Of a stretch of 64,000 bases of DNA, positions 6,847-45,461 are shown one piece after another. The stretch spans positions 3,144,501 to 3,208,500 of the forward strand of contig CP141143.1 of assembly GCA_035235625.1 (NCBI GenBank), read 5' to 3'. The notes beneath the pieces were generated by a model that saw only the letters and a list, made by a program, of their open reading frames with translations, was not told the DNA's origin and did no database searches. The DNA is from Saururus chinensis (Eukaryota > Streptophyta > Magnoliopsida > Piperales > Saururaceae). A program made the translations under genes and the position numbers. Position 1 is the stretch's first letter, and every line of letters starts with the position of its first letter.

Positions 6847-9800
6847 TCAAGGCGACCACGAAGGAAACCGGAGCAAAAACTCATCCTCAGACAACCACGT
6901 AGCGTCCTCAAGTGGCTGACCCTGCCAAGAGACTAAAACCTCCATGGTAATCCGACCAGAACGGCGTACACGACGCTTGTCCAGTAGCACTGCGGGAACA
7001 GGCTCAGACGAAGCGACAGGTCCCATCAAGGGAAGAGGTGGAGCATCCAAAGCCAGGGTAGGGTCACCAATGCAACGAAACAACCGAGAAACATGAAAAA
7101 CTGGATGGACCAACGAACCTTCCGGCAAAGTGAGGCGATAAGCAACCGAACCCACTCTCTCTTCGACAACATAGGGCCCATGAAACCGTGGAGCAAGCTT
7201 AGAGTGTGCAGGCTGGAACAAGGAGGACTGATGCTGAGGAAGAATTGAAACATAAACCAAGTCCCCCACGGCAAACTCGCACTCAGTGTGATGGCTGTCA
7301 TAAATCTGCTTCATTCGGTATTGAGCTACAGATAGGTTCTATTTAAGCTAACGAAGGACCTCATCCCGAGTCTGGAGCATATAGTCGACCTTTGCCACGG
7401 AAGACCGATGAGGCACATAGGACAGCACAGTAGGAGGCGGCCTGCCATACAAAACCTGAAAAGGAGTGAACCCGGCACGAGTGTGGTAGGCGGTGTTATA
7501 AGACCACTCTGCCCAAGGAAGAAGCTAAAGCCAACGTCGGGGCTGAGCCATAGCGAAGCAACACAAATACTGCTCCAAACAATGGTTCACGACCTCTGTC
7601 TGACCATCCGTCTGCGGGTGGTATGCGGTGCTCATGTGGAGAGAAGTGCCCTGTAGAGTGAAAAATTCTTGCCAAAACTGAGAGATGAAAGCCCGGTCGC
7701 GATCGGAGACAATCGTGTGAGGCATACCATGTAACTTGGCCACTTCTCGAACATAAAGTTCCGCCATCAACTTAGCTGTGTAGGGATGACCCAGAGCACA
7801 AAAATGGGCATATTTAGATAGCCGATCCACGACCACCATAATCACCGACTTGCCTTGAACCAACGGTAAGGCCTCAACAAAGTCCATGGAAACATCGTCC
7901 CAAACCTAATCCGGAATGGGCAAAGGCTGAAGTAACCCGGCCGGTGAGGTAGTGGCGCACTTGGCACATTGACAGACATCACAAGTAGCCACAACATCAG
8001 TCACTGCGCGACGTACACCCTTCCACAAGAAGCTCTAACTGACCCGTTTATAAGTATGAAGAGCACCCTCATGACCCGCCAAAGGAGAGGCATGGAAGTG
8101 ATCGATGAGACGCTGGCGCAGGTCTGTAACCGCTGGCACCCAAAGATGGTCCTTCCAGAAGAGAAGGCCATCCTTCCATGCAAAACCAGGGTGCGCCGTT
8201 GGGTTGGCCTGAAAGGCCACGATCAGAGTGGAGGTCGGGCAATCATCCTTATAAGCCTGCTGTAATTCATCAAGAAAGGGATAAACTGGGCTGGAAATAG
8301 CCAAACATGAACCTGGGTTGGCGCGGCGAGACAGTGCATCAGCCATAGTGCTGTCCAAGCCCCGCTTGTACACTACCTCATAGTCATAACCCAAGAGCTT
8401 ACTAACCCACCGCTGCTGCGCGGGCGTGGACACCCTCTGTTCGAGAAAATACTTGAGCGGCTGATGGTCAGTGCGAATGAGAAACCGCCGGCCAAGCAAA
8501 TAAGGACGCCACTTCTCGACCGCAAGGACAATGGCGAGCATCTCTTTCTCGTAGACTGAGAGGGATAGGGAACGACCAGCCAAAGCCTTACTGAAGTAGG
8601 CAATGGGACGTTCCTCCTGAAGTAGTACCGCCCCTAGGCCGACATCTGAAGCATCGGTCTCGACCACAAATGGCCGGCTGAAATCAGGGAGACTCAAAAC
8701 AGGGGCGGTCACCATAGCCTGTTTTAACTCCTCAAAGGCGGCCTAGGCAGCGTCGGACCAACAAAAAGCACCTTTCTGTAACAGCTGAGTGAGGGACCGA
8801 GCAATCTCGCCATAGCGGTGAATAAAGCACCGATAATAGCCAGTAAGACCAAGGAAACCCTGCAGCGCCCAGGCACAAGTAGGGGCCGGCCAATATAGCA
8901 TGGCGGTCACCTTAGAAGGGTCCGTAGCCACACTGTCACGAGATATGACATGACCCAAGTATTCAACCTGTGAACTGCCAAACGAACACTTCGAGCGTTT
9001 AAGAAACAATGAGTTAGCTTGCAAGATATCAAAGACAGACCTGAGATGCTCCAAATGGTCGCCCCACGACTTGCTATAGACCAGAATATCGTCGAAGAAC
9101 ACCAAGATAAAGCGGCGGAGGAAGGGCCTGAAGAGGTCATTCATAAAGCTCTGAAAGGTAGAGGGCGCGTTCGTGAGGCCGAACGGCATAACCAAGAACT
9201 CAAAATGACCATCATGAGTACGGAAGGCAGTCTTATGCACATCGGTGGGTTGCATTCGGATTTGATGGTAACCTGAATGAAGGTCAAGCTTAATGAATAC
9301 GGTAGCACCAGCCAATTCGTCCAATAGGTCCTCCACCACCGGTATAGGATACTTGTCCTTCACTGTGATTGCATTCAGCGCCCGATAATCCACACAGAAG
9401 CGCCAAGTACCATCTTTCTTACAGACCAGCAACACGGGGGTAGAAAAGGAACTCGTGCTAGGCCAAATGATACCTGAAGAAAGCATGTCCGCTACCAGGC
9501 GCTCGATCTCAGCCTTTTGGATGTATGGATAACGATAGCGACGTACATTGGCGGGAGCAGCACCGAGCAGAATAGGAATAGAGTGGTCATGAGCCCTCTC
9601 CAGCGGAAGACCTGTTGGCTCAGCAAACACCGTGCCATACGCTATCAAAAGATCAAGAAGGTCCTGCGTCACATCATCCTGTACCACTTCCACTGACGCT
9701 CGCTGCTGGAGAAGGAGTCCTTGTACTGTGAACCTAAAGAAGGACCCTGTTGCCTGAGCCGAAAGAAGAGTGTCGAGCTGAGAGCCTTGGAGACGTACCC

Positions 9801-9872
9801 ACTGTCCATTCAATGCGAAATCCATCACCAGTTCCTTAAAGTTCCAAAGAACGTCCCCAAGCTCCTGGAGCC
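6847..9872 (-). pseudogene. Chromovirus pol: RT, RNase H, integrase, chromodomain; six internal stops
   Basis: One reading frame holds all domains in order. Reverse transcriptase (9828-8746) has FIKLDLHSGYHQIRM and the active-site VFFDDILVYS. RNase H (8715-8400) has VVETDASDVGLGAVLLQ. The integrase zinc region follows, with HASPLAGHEG near 8060-8090 and its two Cys in untracked sequence near 7960-7990. The catalytic core (about 7890-7525) has MDFVEALP, VSDRDRAFISQFW and DGQTEVVN. The C-terminal chromodomain (about 6990-6850) has VRRSGRITMEVLVSWQG and ATWLSEDEF. TAG stops interrupt at 8743-8745, 8035-8037, 7906-7908, 7525-7527, 7348-7350 and 7339-7341. No frameshift is seen between segments. 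Downstream of the terminal TGA a LEDK-like tail is readable in another frame up to the LTR. Confidence 0.95.
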
Positions 9873-10505
9873 ACTGCTGTCACGCCCTGGCGATGCCCGA
9901 CCCGAGCCGAACCCGGTCCAAGGGCCGGTCAAGCGCGCGGGGGCGACGAAGTGAAAATTGAGAAACGATCTAGCGGAAGACTTAACCCTAACCACGGGCG
10001 ATTAACAGAAATACGGAGTACGCACAATCCTTTGAGCAAGAGTAAATAAAAGGGGAAAAGAGTATTGCTTATCACGAAGTAAACAACAATCTCAAACCCA
10101 CAAGCTTAGTTAAGTAAAGCCCACACCGACTCAAAATAAGTCATAAGCATCACAACTGTAAAATGTGACATAAATCCAAAACAAAGAACCCTAAACAAAG
10201 GTTCTAATCATAAGCATGAAACAAAGAAGATAAGTCACACAACGATCTCCATCATCACCCCCAAGCCATCTCTGACCTTTCCTCAAAGAGGAGATCCTGT
10301 CCGTCTGCGTGTCGCACCACGCAACCCCAAATCAAAACACAAAAAGAGGGGTGAGTTTAACAACTCAGCAATGGTTTTAATATCACTATCAACGTCGGAA
10401 ATACGATAGCATAGTAATGAGATCGTTCAGATCAAAGATTTACATGATGCATCATTTTCTGATCACACATACATACCACCTAACACTGCATCATAGTGCA
10501 AAATC

Positions 10506-10945
10506 AACCTGCATGGATGTATCTCTAACATACATATTCCCACATGCATAACATCAACATCAACCTGCATGGATGTATCTCTAACATACATATTCCACAT
10601 GCATAACATCAACATCAACCTGCATGGATATATCTCTAACATACATATTCCACATGCATAACATCAACATCAACCTGCATGGATGTACCTCTAACATACA
10701 TATTCCACATGCATAACATCAACATCAACCTACATAGATGTATCTCTAACATACATATTCCACATGCATAACATCAACATCAACCTGCATGGATGTATCT
10801 CTAACATACATATTCCACATGCATAACATCAACATCAACCTGCATGGATGTACCTCTAACATACATATTCCACATGCATAACATCAACATCAACCTGCAT
10901 GGATGTACCTCTAACATACATATTCCCACATGCATTATATCATCA
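10506..10945. repeat. 55-bp tandem repeat, about eight copies, in LTR C
   Basis: Units start near 10508, 10564, 10619, 10674, 10729, 10784, 10839 and 10894 with CCTGCATGGATGTATCTC and include a CACATGCATAACATCAAC segment. Copies are highly alike, so the amplification is recent relative to the element. There are no spacers, so this is not a CRISPR array. Confidence 0.95.
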
Positions 10946-13014
10946 CAACCTCCATCAAGGAGTAATCACACATTAATGTCACACAGACGGGAGCATAGAT
11001 AAGGCCACGAAGGCGTGTCATAGTCCAAAATTCTACACAAGAATTAGAGAAAGATCGGGGTTGTCAATCCCTAATGCTGCTCGCCCTGGACGATCCTGGC
11101 CAAGGATGTCCCATTCTCACACAGATAATCTAGAGCAGGGGTGTTCGCCCAAGGACATCTCCTGCGGAGGGAAAAGCCTGAGTTCTCACACAGAGAACCC
11201 TAAAACACGTGGTAGCGGGGTGCACACGGCATACCACACTGGATTCTCAGGGTCCAGATGACACTCATAATAACATTCTCACAATCCGCAAGACAAGTAC
11301 ACAACTCGTCCCCACATCATTCCATTTAACAAGACTCAACCCGGGGAGTGCACTCGTTCCACACAGGAACTCAAATCAAAATATGTCCTTTCGGACCAAT
11401 CAACTTGCGATTAATCCACGACCGATCAATCCGGCACACAATTTTATCACATTGCATCCAATCGGTCAAATTCGATTAACCACGATGAAGCCCCAATTGG
11501 AAATCCATTTTCATGATGCATGCAGCATGGTACATACGTGGGCAAAGCATACATGAATCCTAATCCATGATAAGTGCTCTCATCAGCCCCTAATGCATCA
11601 TTCATAATCACAATATCAAGCTTCAACATCATCATTTAACCCCCACATGTGTGTGTAACTAGTAGAAGCATTTCACACAATGCATGTCAACATGCTTGAA
11701 AATAAACTCACTACCACACTACACATGTGAATTACCATCTAAACATGAATTTCAGCGGAAATCATAGAAGAAGAATCGTTGAAATCATATCTCAATTCAA
11801 AACTCAACCACAAAGGCTAAACACATATAACATCACTCATTTCATCATTGAGTCATGGCATTCACCAACATCCACACACCAACTAACCACACTCTATCAT
11901 GACAAATCAATCCAATAATAGGTTGTAGTCCTACTGAAAATATACTCAACCATAGGAAATCAACCATTCACAATTTCAAGATGACAATTCCAACATCATG
12001 CCATAAAACATAAGCCATTCTATAAATCTCTAAGCATATATCCCAACTTCACAACCTCAATAGCATGCATTTTCAGTAGCATAATATGGCTCAAAACACT
12101 CCACATTCATATAAAATTGGCAAGCTAAAGTGGAATCATCAAAATAGACATCATATGCACAACATACAATTTACTGTGTAGCCGATCGAACGCCCTTCAG
12201 GCCGTTCGATCGGTTAAACGCAAAATTTTGAATTTCACAGTTTTGTCGTTCGAACGCTGAGCAGACCGTTCAATCGGCTGAACTGGAAAAGTGTTGTTCC
12301 GACAGTGTTGCCGTTCGAACGCCCCGAAGGGCCGTTCGAACGCCAACAAGGCAGAACAGTTCATCTTCTTCCTTTCGCAAATTCAAACCGAAACACCATA
12401 GATAACACTTCAAATCCACATCTAACACGCTAATCATCATCAAAAGTCCTCCTTGACTTCCAGAACATCAAACCATACCATAATAATACAAAACCCTAAG
12501 AAATCGGGATTAAATAATTCTATTTTCTAATCTTACCATTAACACACCAAATCAAGCAACTCCATTTCGAAATAAGCCAAAAATAAAGAATTTTACCATG
12601 GATAAACAGAAATTTTGAAGACCCATTACCTCAGCACTTGATTAAGCTCGGATTGAAGAGTCACCCTTCTTGAAATCCTTGAAAACACAATGAGTTTGAA
12701 TTAAACTCTAATAGAAATCGATTTACCCAAGAAATCCCTAATTAAATCTTAGATCTAGGGCTTGTTGGTAGTAAAAATCAAATTTTGAATGTTAGGGTTT
12801 TTAGTAAAACATAAATTAGTAGCTTTTGATGCTAAAAAACGAATTGAATCAAGGGGAAAATGGTAGATTTGGAAGAAATTAAGAAGAAAGTCATGGATTA
12901 GTGCTTAATTAGAGTAAACTTACTTTAATCGGCTTCTAATTCGGGCCTAAGTGGGGATTAGGCCAGCCCTCTCTCCTTAGCCTATTCCCAAAAATGGAAA
13001 TGGCTCAGGTCTGC

Positions 13015-13023
13015 CCTTTTATA
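13015..13023 (-). promoter_or_regulatory. TATA box of LTR C
   Basis: TATAAAAGG on the minus strand, about 425 bases inside the LTR start and matching the position in LTR F. It fits a U3 promoter. Confidence 0.55.
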
Positions 13024-13441
13024 GTAAGGGTTGGGGTACGCATAGATAAGTTTTGGGGTGTAAATAGGAAAAGTAGGCTAAAAATAGATATTTTGCAAAT
13101 TTAAGCACTGATTAAGCCTAATAAAATTCTGAAAATTTTTGTATAACTTTAAGTATATGTCTAGGTTCATTTGACCTAAAAATAAAAGTTTTGACGGTGG
13201 GGCCCACAGGGGTCCCGCCAAAACCCTAATTTTTGGGAAAATAGTGAAAAATCCGAAAAAACCCAAAATTTCACATTTAGTTTAAAATCACTTAAAACCA
13301 CTAATACTGAAGTTGATTTTGGTTAAAACCATCACAAACACTATTTATTTATGAAATCACCGAATAAGATCAGAAAATACGTTAATCTCACGATAACCAA
13401 CAATTAAAGAAAACCAAAAACCGGTTTAGAGATGAGGGTCC

Positions 13442-15043
13442 TTACAATTGCACTCCCAACACCACATCCGCCCCCTTCATCAGCAGTAAAAAGAGGTCGG
13501 TCACGAAGGTGTGGCCCTGGATGGAGAGTGCAGCCTGTGCACAGATGCCTGAACTACGGAGGTGCTTGCCATCACCAATCAATACATCAAAGGGGGTCGA
13601 GTTAGACACAAAGCAACCTAGCCGCTGCGCCACCTTATCATTAATGAAGTTGTGAGTCGATCCACTGTCAATTAGAATGGCGACTTGTTGCCGCTTGAGA
13701 TAACCCTGTACCCTCATTGTGCGCAGAGTGAAGGCCCCTGAAAAAGCATGTACAGAGATCTCTAGCAATGTATTGGCAGGGTACGAAGAATCATGCTCAT
13801 CGGTTCCCCCGGACTCCTCATCGATCTCCTCCACTAAGAGACTCCCTTTGACGGAACAACGGTGCCCCGGAATGAACTTCTCATCGCAGCGAAAACAGAG
13901 TCCTTTTGTCTGGCGTTCCTCCATTTGGGCTGGCGTGAGACGACGAACAATCAGACCGGCTGGGGGAGGAGTTTGGCCAACTCAGCCAGTCACTTGGCTG
14001 CTGGCTGGAGCGGCAAGGGGAGAGACGGACACAGCAGCCCGAGGAAAAGGTCCGAGCCTGCCTCCGTGCCATTGTTGAGTCAACTTCTCCTCCTCAATAC
14101 ATGCGTGGCGCACTACCTCCCGCATGCTGGAACAGGGAAAATGGCGCATCTCCTCAGAAATCTTAGGCTTGAGTCCTCGCTTGAACGTACCCACCAGGGC
14201 TGCCACCAGCCAATCAGGGAGGCGATTAGCCACCTTCATGAACTCCGTGTAGTAGGCGCTCATGGTGGATGTCTGGCGCAGGGAGGACAGCATTTCATTG
14301 AAGTCTTGAAACTCATTGGGCCCGAACTGGATGCATAATTCATCGGAGAAGGTGGCCCAAGTTGGGTAGCGTACCTCCTTCTCAAAGCTCTGATACCACA
14401 CCGATGCATCCCCGTCAAGATGGAAGGCCGCTATGCGCAGCCGTTCAGCCTCCGACTGCGTCCCCTGGTAGGCGAAAAATTTCTCCGCCTTGTAGAGCCA
14501 CTCTACAGGATCGTCATCTCCGTTATAACGCGGAAACTGTAGGCGGGCCAAACGAGGTTCCGCCCCACCCCGAAGTGCCCCGCGGTGTCCTGGATACTCC
14601 TCCCAGTCATCCTCCATCTCCTGGTGCAGATTTCGGGGAGGCGGCTCCATTGGGGCATTTTTCCGAACACCTGGTGCGCCTCGGGAATCCCGGGCCTGGT
14701 GCTTCCCTTCCATGATATGATCGACAGTGCCAAAGCATACATCGTCCTAAGCAACGCGCATCTCGCGGTCTGCAGGCGCTGAGAAGTTAGAGAGGAGGAG
14801 TTCAGGAGCTTGGGACGGTCCCCCCTTCTCCATGGAGGCTGGCAGCCTGGCCACCAGAGGGGGTGCGCACTCAGCCTGAATCTGGGCTACAGCCAATCCC
14901 AGTGCCTCAATCTTGGCCATGAGTTGCGCCATTGTGATCTCGCTGCCGGTCTCCGGTGCTGATTTGGGGCTGTTCGCAGAGACGAGAGTCTCTTTCTCGG
15001 GCTGAGTCTCCAGGGCCGTGGCAGCTTGCTTGCCTCGAGCCAT
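13442..15043 (-). pseudogene. Chromovirus gag and protease, two internal stops
   Basis: The start is chosen at ATG 15043 (MARGKQAAT), 18 bases beyond the primer binding site. A coiled region (MAQLMAKIEALGLAVAQIQ) precedes the retrotransposon gag domain (about 14600-14200: FPRYNGDDDPVEWLYKAEKFF, VWYQSFEKEV, WATFSDELCIQFGP). Then come a zinc knuckle (CFRCDEKFIPGHRC, near 13895) and an aspartic protease (ILIDSGSTHNFI near 13660; ADVVLG near 13455). TAG at 14747-14749 and TGA at 13982-13984 interrupt the frame; the downstream segments continue in the same frame. The last residue and stop at 13442 are created by the solo LTR insertion, after which the frame resumes at 9877. Confidence 0.93.
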
Positions 15044-18232: not shown

Positions 18233-19043
18233 ATCGAAACCCACCAGCTTGCTAAAATAACTTCACATAGATCCAAAGTCGACAGGGCTCCGTATTTACC
18301 ATAAAGCATTTACACGTGAGTGTTTTCACAAAAGCCCCTCCTATTATGACAACTTGGGCGAGTCTTCATTCTCTTGTGAGAGTGCTCATTGTGAGTAGTT
18401 AACAGCGGATCAAAGCCGGTTGTACAAAGCAAATAACCCAAGTATCGTACCATAATTAATGTTGACATCCGCTTCATCCGTCGTCGTGCTGCCCCCTTAC
18501 TTCACAAACAAAAATTATTGCATGCTTGGGACCCAGCAAAATAAGCAAAAATTATTGCATGCTTGGTACCCTGCAAAATAAGTGTCCAAAGCATGGTTGC
18601 CCCTAAAAGAAACGAAGCCACCTTTTTAAAACTGGCCGTACAAATTATATATGTGTCATGATGGGTGACCTTCCGTATTTTTCGTATACATTTTTAACCA
18701 AGCTTTTGATTGCCTCATGCTCCAGCTCATCCCTCGAGACGCAACTGGACCCCATACATTGATCCCAGACATTATATGGAGAGCAGGAAGGTTGTTCACG
18801 GCAATTACTGCGTTGCGAGTGTCACTCGAATTCAACTCCTTCGCGAAGAAAGATACGTTTAAATGCTTAATGCGTGTGATATCCCGACGATAACCACTTA
18901 AGCCGCTCTTTTTGCCTCGATAATTTGTTTGGGTACATATCATGACAAAATAATTATAATTGACGATTTTCGGACAAGTTTAATATATGTCGCGTCTTCC
19001 GCTTTCCCTTGACCTTTTTAATACTCTTTTATAATATATTAAC
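18233..19043. other. Intergenic; short tandem duplication
   Basis: No gene recognised. A segment of about 37 bp with an ATTATTGCATGCTTGG core is duplicated in tandem at about 18509-18582. A 95-codon minus-strand ORF (18656-18943) resembles nothing I know. Confidence 0.5.
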
Positions 19044-19455
19044 AAATCAAAGGAGAAAATACGCCACATCGGTTATTTGGTCTAGAAAAATATCTTTTTC
19101 TCTTGAATGATTTTATTTCACGGTGGTTTTATCTCACATGTAGCTTCCTATTTTTGGGTAGGTTTATCTTCTTCATGGTTTCATTTGCTCGTTTACTCTT
19201 TCTCTACTTCTTTTTTTTGGTACATCACAACTTTTAGCCTTGAATATTCTCTTTTACCAAGTAGATTAATTTATGTTATTTAGAATGATGAAAAAGGTGT
19301 TACCCGATAAAAAATATTATTTTAGGTTGGTTATATATTAGGTATTAAGTAGTTTTTGTTAGTAAGGTTTTTTGGGTAACTAAAAAATTGGAAAACTAGA
19401 AGACTGGATCACTGAAAAATTAGAAAAGTAGAAAAGTAAATTACTCATATGATAT
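19044..19455 (+). repeat. Left terminal inverted repeat of the Mutator-like element
   Basis: Pairs with 21830-22270 in inverse orientation with many substitutions and small indels. The inner end is near GTAAATTACTCATATGATATG. Confidence 0.75.
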
Positions 19456-20512
19456 GAGAAGAAAAAATAATATTACTCATTAGAATATTAGTGTTAAAGT
19501 GTCAAAGTGACAGGAAGAGATGGGAAGAAAAAATGCAAAGTAAGAGGAGAAAATAGGAAGAACGTGGGTAATATAGGAGAATGACACATTTTTTAGTGTT
19601 TCATATAACATAATTGTCAATTTCAATTGTGACGAAGATAAAACTCCAATTATATGAGTTATTTCATTTAGAGGAGAAGAGTAGGATGAAGAATACGCAT
19701 ACATCCCGCATTGACATTGATTCAAAAGTAACACATGATGACCTAGCAAGTGTAAAGTAAAAGTGTGATATAGATTAAAGCATTAATGAATACATCTCAA
19801 ACACGATTATAGATAACTTTAAATTTGGGTAAGATCCCTATTATGCATCATCATGAGTAAATGAAGATGATCTTATAGGAAAAGTAAATCATGGTGTATA
19901 ATAACATATTATGAGTTTTTCAAAGCCCCAATACCAACTTTTTCCTAAATGATGAAAGGTATAGTAAATATTATAAAAATAGTTTGTAATTGTGTATTAT
20001 GTATGTAGATATATGAGACCATTAATACAAAATATATTATGTTAGATTATGTAGATCAAATAGAAGCAATTGTAGTCAACTAACTCCTTTTGATGAAAAA
20101 GTTGAAACCATGGATAGTCCACAAATATCAATTCCATATACATTAGTTAAAATGATATAAGTAATTTTACTTTTTAGTTTGACAGTTTTTCAATTTGGCA
20201 GGGTTATAGTTTGGCAGTTTTTAGTCCAATAATTAACCCTTATAATTTTCAGGAAAAAATGAAGGTGGTGGTAAGAAAAAAATATTTAGATATGATGAAG
20301 AACCCCCAAGTTCGACCTACAAAATAGATATTATTGGGGAGGATCCCTATATAAATAATGATTTTGGGGTGTAATTAGGGAATGTTTATGATCAATTAGC
20401 GATAGAAATTTCTCAACAGTTCAAGGACAAAGTCATGCCTCAACTTCACCTTCACAATATGGCCATGTACACCAAGTTTCAGTTCAAAGTTATATATTTA
20501 AATAAACCATGA

Positions 20513-20569
20513 TATACACTCAGATGTGTTATTGAGAACTGCCCATGGAGACTACATGTAGATTGGTCT
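20513..20569 (+). pseudogene. MURA transposase zinc-finger remnant
   Basis: This frame reads YTLRCVIENCPWRLHVDW, the C-x5-C-P-W-R signature of the N-terminal DNA-binding domain of Mutator transposases (DBD_Tnp_Mut). Stops lie just upstream (TGA at about 20510) and about nine codons downstream. The rest of the transposase is not found. Confidence 0.7.
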
Positions 20570-20769
20570 ATGACAATTCTTTTCAATTTGTACTGAAAGA
20601 TCCCCAGTTGAGATGTGATCCACCTACTGTAAGGGTTGATTGCATGATAGCTAAGCTTAAGTTTAGGCTTCCTGGTGCTCTCAAGTTTATTTTGTGTGTT
20701 CTTCTTGAAAGGAAGAATTATGATATTTATTTTGGGAATAAATGCTTCCTTCTTTGTAATAGAACTTAG
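20563..20769 (+). pseudogene. Argonaute-like fragment (AGO4 clade type) inside the Mutator-like element
   Basis: In the frame opening at ATG 20545, residues from about 9 to 60 resemble the end of the Argonaute linker 2/MID start: a DPQL-R-PPTVRVD stretch, then KLKFRLPGALKFILCVLLERK and N-DIY. In plant AGO4/6/9 proteins the match is a VRV(D/E)KMFE-KSKLPGAP-FLLCLLPERKNSDIYGPWK region. The resemblance stops after DIY, the frame ends at 20767-20769, and no catalytic PIWI residues are present. It lies directly beside the MURA remnant. It could be a captured exon of a host gene; expression cannot be judged. Confidence 0.62.
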
Positions 20770-21829
20770 TGCAATGTTTTGAACTTTTGCTCTGCAGACC
20801 CGACTCTGGGTAGATATGTGGATTCAAAATGTTCTTTTTTGTTCTACTCAAAATTAAAATACAGATTTATTTCTTGTTCTATTTTTTTCCTATCACACAA
20901 ATGAGCAATTTTGGAAAGTACATATGAACAAAATGGGTTGCACCCTATATATATATGCCTACATCGGTAATGGAAATTGGATAACTGGAAACAGGGAAAC
21001 TAGAAACTAGAAACAGGGAAACTAGAAACTCAAAACTCGAAAATGGGAAAACTAAAAAACCTGAAAAACTGTCAAACATGATAAACTAATATTTATACGG
21101 TAACAAAAACTCATGCAACTTGCAAATATAAATATCATTGATAGAGAACTAGGGATTTGTATACAATTGAGGTCTGAAAAACCCTTTGTGTATGTGAGAT
21201 GCAAAAAGAAGAAACTATGAATCACTGTATACAAGTAATATCAATATAAAATTGCTTAGTGTATGTGAGATACAGAAAGAAGGAACTATGAATCACTGTA
21301 TACAAGTTATATCAATATAAAATTGCTTATGTATATCTTTTATATCCACAAAATTACATTTATCTCTAAACATGTATTATATTTCAAACTCTGAATATTA
21401 GAAACTGTCACCTCCAACATCTATGTTTGAAGGTTGTCACACATCTTCTCCACTATGACTGCCTGAGTTCATCAACTTCACTTGTTTAGGTGTAGGCCTG
21501 GACTTTCTAGGTGTACTAGTCATTTTTTTATTTGCCACTTGTATCTTTTCTTTATGATTTCTGACTGCTGGAGGTTCTCCTATATGTATTCTACTCTTAT
21601 CTTCATTATCATTGCCATCATGATGCCCAACCAAGAACTTTATGTTCATACCCCTTACATTTACTGCACTTGATCGTTCTCTTTTCTTCACCATACGAGA
21701 GTACTCACTTCTTCTTTGGTCGTTATGTGGGAACCCTTGAATGTAGAGGCTTCAATTGAATTACCCTTATAAAATTCGATGTATCCCATTGACTTTTATG
21801 TAGAACAGGGTATATGCTGCATTTGTAAA

Positions 21830-22270
21830 CCTATCATATCAGTAATTCAGTTTTTTATTTTCTAATTTTTTAGTAATCCAATTTTTCAGTTTCTAGTTTT
21901 TCAATGACCCAATTTTCTAGTTTTCAGTTTTCCAATTACCCAAAAAATCTTATTAGCAGAAACTACGTAATACCCAAAATATAACCAACCCAAAATAACA
22001 TTTTTCATCAGGTAACACTTTTCTTATCATCCCAAATAACATGAACCAATCTACTTAATAGAAGGGAATATTCGGAGTTGGAAGTTGTGACATATTAGAG
22101 AAAAAAAGCAGAGAAGATGGACTTGGCAAACAAAAATATGAAGAAGATGAACCTACCCAGGAGTAAAAAGCCTTACGAGAGATAAAACCACTATGAGATG
22201 AAGTCATACGAGAGAAGAAGAAATCTTCCTGGACTGAGCGACCGATGTAGCATATTTTTCCCATTGAGTT
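21830..22270 (-). repeat. Right terminal inverted repeat of the Mutator-like element
   Basis: Inverted copy of 19044-19455. It ends near TATTTTTCCCATTGAGTTG. Similarity to the left arm still flickers beyond this point, so the true terminus may lie further out. Confidence 0.75.
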
Positions 22271-23540
22271 GTCATCTGATGAAGAAGAAGGTATTTTAGT
22301 AAAAAACTCTCCCATGTTTGAAAATTCTCGCGTGAGCAAGTCTACTTTGGTAAATAGTAGATACTTGCTCACACTTTGGTTATTTGACCAAAGTAGGAGT
22401 CTAATTTGGCCAATTCATCTATTAATAATTATATTTAAAATAATATTTTTTATTCAAAAAACTTATAAAAATTTGTTCAAATACTTAGGGGCTATTTGTG
22501 TGTATAATTTATAAAAAATTATATTGATTTCTCCCAATTTCAGTTCGAATTATCGAAATTATGTTTATGTATAGAAGGTGGCCCGGAAGTTGATTTTAGA
22601 TCGTTTTGAGCCTGAATAGGCCGGAATTACTGAATCACCTCATAAGGTGATTTCATCCATTCCGGCTCCTAGTCCCCATTTAAAAAATTACAGATTTCAC
22701 TATTTTTTAACAGTTATCTTTCATATCGATTTGAGCTTCGAAAAATATGTCATAATAAGTAGGGCTCATTTTAAAAATTTAAAATTACTTACTTTTGTGA
22801 GATCTTATTTGATAGAGCTTGAATTTAGAGTTTAGGAGCATAATAGTATAAAGAACGTACATTCAAGTTTGAGAAATAGAGTTATATTAATTTAAAATTT
22901 TTAAATTAGGTTTGACGCGACATCTAAATTTATTATAACAAATTTCATTACTAACTATAATTCATATTTCACAATAAGTTTTTAGAATAAATTCAAAAAA
23001 ATTTACTTCTATTTCTAAAAAATTTATTACCCAAATAACCCTTTAAATTGAATAAAATAAAATATTGATACAAAATAACTTTTTTTTATCAAAAAGAAAG
23101 AACTATCAATTTAAAGCGAAAAAAATATTAAATTAAAATGACGGGACAAATGTTTTCGAGATGGTGCAAGGCAGGGGCTTTTCTCTTCAATTCGTTGCAC
23201 AATATCTCGGACAGTCGAACTTCAATTTAAACTCCTTTTTCTCGTCCGTGTCTCGCTAAAGCATCGGCCTACTTTTTCCTTCTTTGATGCCCCGATATAT
23301 CACGTGGCCAAGCCCATAAGGGTAAATGAACACTGCTTCTAGTTTTGTCGTTTTCTTGGTCTTTCCTATAGAAGGGACAGCTGTCCGCTCGAGATTCCGC
23401 GGCGGTCATGTAGATAGAAATGGTGGCCGGCTTCTGTGGGGCCCTCTCGAGCCTTACAACGTACCGGACCATGCCCTCCTATGGATAAGCTATCCAACTT
23501 ATCAGCTGATAAGTACTGGGACTTACCATCTGCTGCCATG
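22271..23540. other. AT-rich spacer with decayed MITE
   Basis: No gene. Bases 22960-23130 resemble the core of the Stowaway-like family found at 34817-35236 (AATTGAATAAAATAAA, AACTTTTTTTTATCAAA) but lack clear ends. The last 300 bases become GC-richer, approaching the TOPLESS promoter. Confidence 0.45.
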
Positions 23541-44885: not shown

Positions 44886-45461
44886 ATGGACTGGTTTTCA
44901 TGGCTTTCCAAGACCAGTCTCGAGCCCACCCTCGTGTACGAATATGGCCTGGCTTTCTCCCACAACGAGCTTCAGGAAGAAGACATTGCTTACTTCAACC
45001 ACGAGTTCCTCCAGAGCATGGGCATTTCCATTGCCAAGCACAGGCTGGAAATCCTCAAGCTTTCCAGGAAGGAGGCAGGCGTCAACCCCCCTCCCATAAC
45101 CCGGTTCTTCGCCATGATCAAGAAGACGAAGCGGTGTCTTACCAGGTACATTCACTCATGGATGCACAGGGAGGAGTCTGCCCTGGTTGTGGTGCACAAA
45201 AAGGGATCTGGCCGCCGCCGGTGGAAGAACTCGCTGGCCAAGAGGAGTAAGAGGTTTGTGTTACCTGAGCCGCGGAGGTTGGCCATCACTGATGGGAGCA
45301 GCTCTGTGACGACTGCTGCCATTAATGGCCCCACTGCGAGCCCCGTGGTTTATCATCTCCATGGGAATGAGAAGATGAGTCACGATCATATGTGCTCCCC
45401 ACAAAGCAGGGCGGAGGAAGTTGGATGGGCTTCTCTGTTTCAAGATTTGAAACCCACCTGA
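44886..45461 (+). CDS. SAM (sterile alpha motif) domain protein, plant type
   Basis: An uninterrupted 191-residue frame. An N-terminal SAM domain (about 13-66) starts WLSKTSLEPTLVYEYGLAFS and continues through NELQEEDIAYFNHEFLQSMG to ISIAKHRLEILKLSRKE, the helix pattern that ends SAM domains. SAM domains mediate protein or RNA contacts, often by polymerising. The remainder is basic (GRRRWKNSLAKRSKRF) and low in order, with a conserved-looking PITRFFAMIKKTKR segment at about 73-86. Plants have a small family of such single-exon SAM proteins; no molecular role is assigned from the sequence. The start is the ATG that begins MDWFSWLS, directly before the domain. An overlapping plus-strand frame at 44855-45250 is a shadow. 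Confidence 0.9.
   Translation: MDWFSWLSKTSLEPTLVYEYGLAFSHNELQEEDIAYFNHEFLQSMGISIAKHRLEILKLSRKEAGVNPPPITRFFAMIKKTKRCLTRYIHSWMHREESALVVVHKKGSGRRRWKNSLAKRSKRFVLPEPRRLAITDGSSSVTTAAINGPTASPVVYHLHGNEKMSHDHMCSPQSRAEEVGWASLFQDLKPT

Follow-up and report, generated by a model that had tools for sequence, protein, structure and literature searches.

An AGO4-clade Argonaute fragment beside a transposase remnant in a decayed Mutator-like element of Saururus chinensis

A short, decayed piece of an AGO4-clade Argonaute gene lies immediately behind the remnant of a MURA transposase domain in Saururus chinensis, and both are enclosed by long inverted repeats. The best explanation, to which we assign a probability of about 0.8, is that a Mutator-like element (MULE) of the MuDR type captured a piece of an AGO4/6-type gene, lost its transposase, stopped moving and decayed to a fossil. 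All coordinates refer to the window, that is, the whole 64,000-nt (64-kb) stretch of DNA that was analysed.

Two sets of plant proteins were compared with the window by tblastn under BLAST defaults: an AGO4-type set (the best 120 of 2227 listed) and an AGO6/16-type set (the best 120 of 1534 listed), which have P0001 and P0002 in common and together make 238 AGO4-clade proteins. As many as 234 of these 238 match one single place at E≤0.01, with a top E of 1.2e-11 and an identity of 48–56% across 50–56 aa in the top five rows. In the rows printed the matches lie on the + strand and share the end point 20730, with three start points (20563, 20572 and 20581); we place the fragment at 20572–20730 (~53 aa, ~159 nt), with the longest matches running from 20563. 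Similarity by chance, for which it might be said that the fragment alone (taken as the 77-aa open frame 20536–20769) finds no match in either Pfam or the PDB, is refuted by an E of this size in a 64-kb search, by the share of proteins that match, and by a shuffle control in which the real fragment scored 58.5 bits against a maximum of 28.9 bits in 1000 residue shuffles of its 53-aa core; we regard it as practically negligible. A close AGO4 structure may be absent from the PDB set, judging from an AGO4 MID query, which finds there mainly AGO1, 2, 5 and 10 along with other Argonaute/PIWI chains. A protein database search with the fragment set in a 900-residue frame, so as to admit full-length proteins, returned no candidates sharing three words. 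The preliminary description had pointed to an Argonaute-like fragment of the AGO4 clade at 20513–20769. The fragment is real and its assignment to this clade, in the sense of an AGO4/6 type, goes well beyond chance, with coordinates slightly shifted: the interval first named comprises the last 48 nt of the transposase domain match, the Argonaute piece, and 39 nt with no recognised homology.

The fragment corresponds approximately to residues 520–590 of full-length AGO4, the N-terminal half of the MID domain. Homology as seen by BLAST ends at the tyrosine of the DIY motif (20730), ahead of GPWKKK, with P0165 as the exception among the rows inspected. We do not claim a continuation of the Argonaute sequence past 20730, as MAFFT forces FGNKC onto FG..TQC there and the BLAST backing consists of one ungapped run-on in P0165 only. 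No other Argonaute parts were found in the 64-kb window at E≤0.01 with the 238 proteins (tblastn, BLAST defaults). When the scan was loosened to E≤10, with neither low-complexity filtering nor composition correction applied, 599 rows came up. Of these, 120 fall at the fragment locus, among them the 25 best; the remainder lie elsewhere and were taken as noise.

Motifs common to the fragment and to plant AGO4 and AGO6/16 Argonautes are PPTVRV, LPG, FILC, ERKN and DIY. With P0001 and P0002 left out, all 118 proteins of the AGO4-type set (best of 2227) match with a median of 52.0 bits (range 43.1–58.5), and all 118 of the AGO6/16-type set (best of 1534) with a median of 46.2 bits (range 32.7–53.9). 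Some residues of the fragment look nearer to AGO6/16, namely FILCVL, and FILCVLLERKN in P0165. The comparison favours AGO4 over AGO6/16 but falls short of proof, given ~50 decayed residues and score ranges that overlap.

Unlike plant AGO4 and AGO6/16 proteins, the fragment stops before GPWKKK and has neither the rest of the MID domain nor a PIWI domain, so that it lacks both the complete MID 5'-phosphate pocket and the PIWI domain of a functional Argonaute. It also departs from the AGO4-type set (best 120 of 2227) by P->L, P->S, R->C and E->K changes at columns that are 99–100% conserved. The 5'-phosphate pocket of an Argonaute requires residues past the point where a fragment ending at DIY stops. 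The fragment, ending short of them, could therefore hardly bind a guide RNA.

Directly upstream, the truncated DNA-binding domain of a MURA transposase occupies 20411–20560 on the + strand (PF03108, DBD_Tnp_Mut, profile positions 7–56 of 67). The match (E 3.2e-7; 30.3 bits against a cut-off of 25) was obtained on the frame from 20246, in which stops were replaced by X. An in-frame TGA at 20510–20512 lies within it, and the frame from this stop onward scores 18.6 bits, under the cut-off. The preceding stretch, 20246–20410 on the + strand, is a probable N-terminal leader of the MURA frame, judged by frame continuity only: it is broken by a TAA at 20372–20374, its open frame (20246–20374) shares the frame of the PF03108 match, and on its own it matches no Pfam family. 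No other Pfam family, the catalytic MULE domain included, was found at E≤1 in the six frames of 19430–21850.

The junction between transposase remnant and Argonaute piece can be placed at 20561–20580, from the end of the PF03108 match and the starts of the Argonaute matches, which lie 2–20 nt past that end and in a different reading frame. A MURA-Argonaute fusion protein was considered and rejected, since the frames differ (20411 for the DNA-binding domain, 20572 for the Argonaute piece) and the MURA frame carries the TGA.

The left terminal inverted repeat arm spans 19042–19430 (+ strand, ~389 bp) and the right arm 21887–22272 (- strand, ~386 bp), as delimited by blastn self-match and MAFFT. 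In the self-match, 19042–19426 pairs with 22272–21890 at 75.8% identity over 385 positions (E 4e-73); in the MAFFT alignment 292 of 386 columns are identical (75.6%), and the differences comprise 81 transitions and 13 transversions. A search beside the arms for target-site duplications of 9–11 bp with up to one mismatch, or of 8 bp without any, found none. Under a relaxed rule, which tolerated 2 mismatches (1 in the case of 8 bp) with a swing of 10 bp, two choices of ends gave no candidates, while 765 of 1944 random end pairs gave at least one. Because no duplication turned up, the exact ends of the element are unproven, and it is the arms and the transposase remnant that place it in the Mutator superfamily. 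Set against the features of a MuDR-type MULE, then, the element has MURA-type sequence (as a remnant only) and long inverted repeats (~390 bp, 75.6%), and shows no target-site duplication of ~8–11 bp, which may have been lost with age.

Within the element, quasi-repetitive GAAACTAG/GGATAACTG stretches occur at 19372–19438, 20983–21089 and 21839–21943, with one at the inner end of each arm and one in the interior. The interior one, a GAAACTA-type stretch detected as tandem repeats, resembles the inner arm ends (21067–20977 matches 21858–21943 at 69%). These stretches are perhaps a subterminal repeat or the remnant of a nested relative. A 71-bp unit is tandemly duplicated at 21184–21334 (2.1 copies, 92% matches), probably more recently than the divergence of the arms. 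To the left of the element, at 18509–18582, there are two 37-bp tandem copies with 94% matches.

The closeness of the junction bears on a different account, in which the Argonaute piece entered an already dead element, either as filler during break repair or in a nested insertion, and the MULE never moved it. The lack of a target-site duplication would suit it, as would the further rearrangements in the element (the 71-bp duplication and the internal arm-like repeats), whereas a junction only 2–20 nt from the end of the MURA match speaks against it, and no nested ends around 20563–20730 were recognised among the inverted repeats of at least 20 nt listed. A weak inverted pair (I18) joins 20171–20196 with 21033–21058 (26 nt, 73%). 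On balance we hold this account to be unlikely.

Under the capture that we prefer, a MuDR-type element would have acquired a short stretch of coding sequence from an AGO4/6-type Argonaute gene. The likeliest route is gap repair in the element with the ectopic gene as template; gap repair has been proposed in models for the uptake of gene pieces by MULEs (PMC4858842). The piece would have been inserted just inside the element's own DNA-binding exon, and the remaining transposase would have been lost. The element would then have ceased moving, and its decay would have consisted chiefly of transitions, the pattern to be expected where silenced DNA is methylated. What is left today appears to be a fossil, with a broken transposase and half a MID domain out of the MURA frame, and neither a product nor a regulatory effect would be expected of it.

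How the element should be classed depends on the definition applied. The preliminary description had called it a Pack-MULE and had set the fragment beside a MURA DNA-binding remnant inside long inverted repeats. The setting is borne out: arms of ~390 bp enclose both, and the PF03108 match (30.3 bits) ends at 20560 with the Argonaute matches starting at 20563–20581. The name holds in part, in that a host gene fragment does lie between terminal inverted repeats, as in Pack-MULEs, in an element that is non-autonomous today; strict membership is unsupported, since no target-site duplication was found, the arms are only 75.6% alike and the transposase is broken. One published rice screen demands such duplications and discards elements matching transposases at tblastn E<1e-9 (PMC4858842). 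Here, in contrast, no duplication was found and a MURA DNA-binding remnant is retained (E 3.2e-7 by Pfam, a measure other than the tblastn test of that study). Capture by a once-autonomous element, the last part of that description, is probable in view of the AGO4-clade identity, the enclosure by inverted repeats and the contact with the MURA remnant taken together.

Comparable captures are well known. Rice holds >3000 Pack-MULEs (PMC4858842), a grapevine MULE family bears exons and introns of cellulose synthase as a case of host gene capture (PMC2528002), MULEs bearing Ulp1 are known, and captured gene pieces mostly turn into pseudogenes (PMC13317346). The present element is like these cases of transduplication in being of Mutator type and enclosing a piece of a host gene, and differs from them in its passenger, which is a decayed AGO4-clade Argonaute piece of ~159 nt. 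Among the open-licence PMC titles and beginnings of abstracts that were listed we found no report of an Argonaute fragment in a MULE, which is a statement about those texts and not about all that is in print.

The fragment carries many changes at conserved positions. At columns at least 95% conserved in the AGO4-type set (best 120 of 2227; fragment residues 16–65), 18 of 29 are kept and 11 changed; with the cut at 85%, 23 of 40 are kept and 17 changed. Among changes that can be explained by a single step, C>T or G>A account for 5 of 8 at the stricter cut and 5 of 12 at the looser one, as raw counts. The excess of transitions between the arms would fit a long decay of methylated DNA.

Despite these changes the Argonaute piece has no stops in 53 codons. 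Decay was simulated on random codons, with the transition share taken from the arms and a rate of 0.16 per site set by the arms; 61% of runs remained stop-free over 53 codons, with 64–83% identity to the parent (5–95% range). At rates of 0.08–0.32 per site, 42–77% of runs were stop-free and parent identity was 45–92%. Purifying selection on the Argonaute frame is therefore not supported, as a stop-free stretch of this length arises in 42–77% of neutral runs. Compared with the AGO4-type set (best 120 of 2227), the fragment shows a median identity of 45% and a maximum of 56%, below the 64–83% simulated for the parent. The capture may therefore precede the element's last move, or the parent may have been a divergent or untypical AGO4 paralogue, or the arms may understate the age.

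Age also bears on whether the passenger could do anything through RNA. In one reading, put forward in the preliminary description, the repeats would drive transcription of the element and putative 21–24 nt RNAs would act on the parental AGO4-type gene. Published work offers parallels: transposons with captured fragments in maize are described as reservoirs of siRNAs affecting donor genes (PMC13317346), of the 475 Pack-MULEs annotated on two rice chromosomes, 248 match transcribed regions, both strands alike (PMC1808428), and 24-nt RNAs on the internal sequence of rice genic MULEs increase with age (PMC4858842), so that small RNAs on the passenger would be compatible with its age. In the same study, however, older and more divergent rice inverted repeats bear fewer 24-nt RNAs. 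RNAs of the two arms are predicted to pair, G-U pairs included, at 335 of 386 positions in runs of up to 31 nt for the + strand, and at 330 of 386 in runs of up to 40 nt for the - strand. Watson-Crick runs between the arms reach at most 13 nt, however, and the fragment itself is old, with low protein identity to the AGO4-type set (median 45%, maximum 56%). We judge this reading very improbable. More speculative still, and hard to credit at present, is the idea that the MULE took a piece of the very Argonaute type that guides its silencing, so that RNAs from the element would dampen the AGO4/6 gene and let the family escape; sister copies in this genome would then share the junction.

Two other features of the window lie at a distance from the element. 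The - strand of 6847–14713 holds remains of a Ty3-type LTR retrotransposon, with gag, protease, reverse transcriptase, RNase H, an SH3 domain like that of Tf2-1 and, under the cut-off, a chromodomain match; it was probably interrupted, because the protease and reverse transcriptase frames are ~3.6 kb apart. At 44886–45461 a 191-aa open frame encodes a SAM domain (PF07647, 23.1 bits, cut-off 20.5) and is perhaps a host gene.

Host gene capture by transposons is common in plants, and in this respect the element described here is an ordinary case. What sets the passenger apart is its origin, since a transposon with a piece of an RNA-silencing gene is a parasite that has taken on board part of the defence meant to keep it silent. 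The capture would gain importance only through evidence, from further copies and from small RNAs, that it was retained and put to use. As an old and broken copy, the element is useful as an example of capture beside a transposase exon followed by transition-rich decay.
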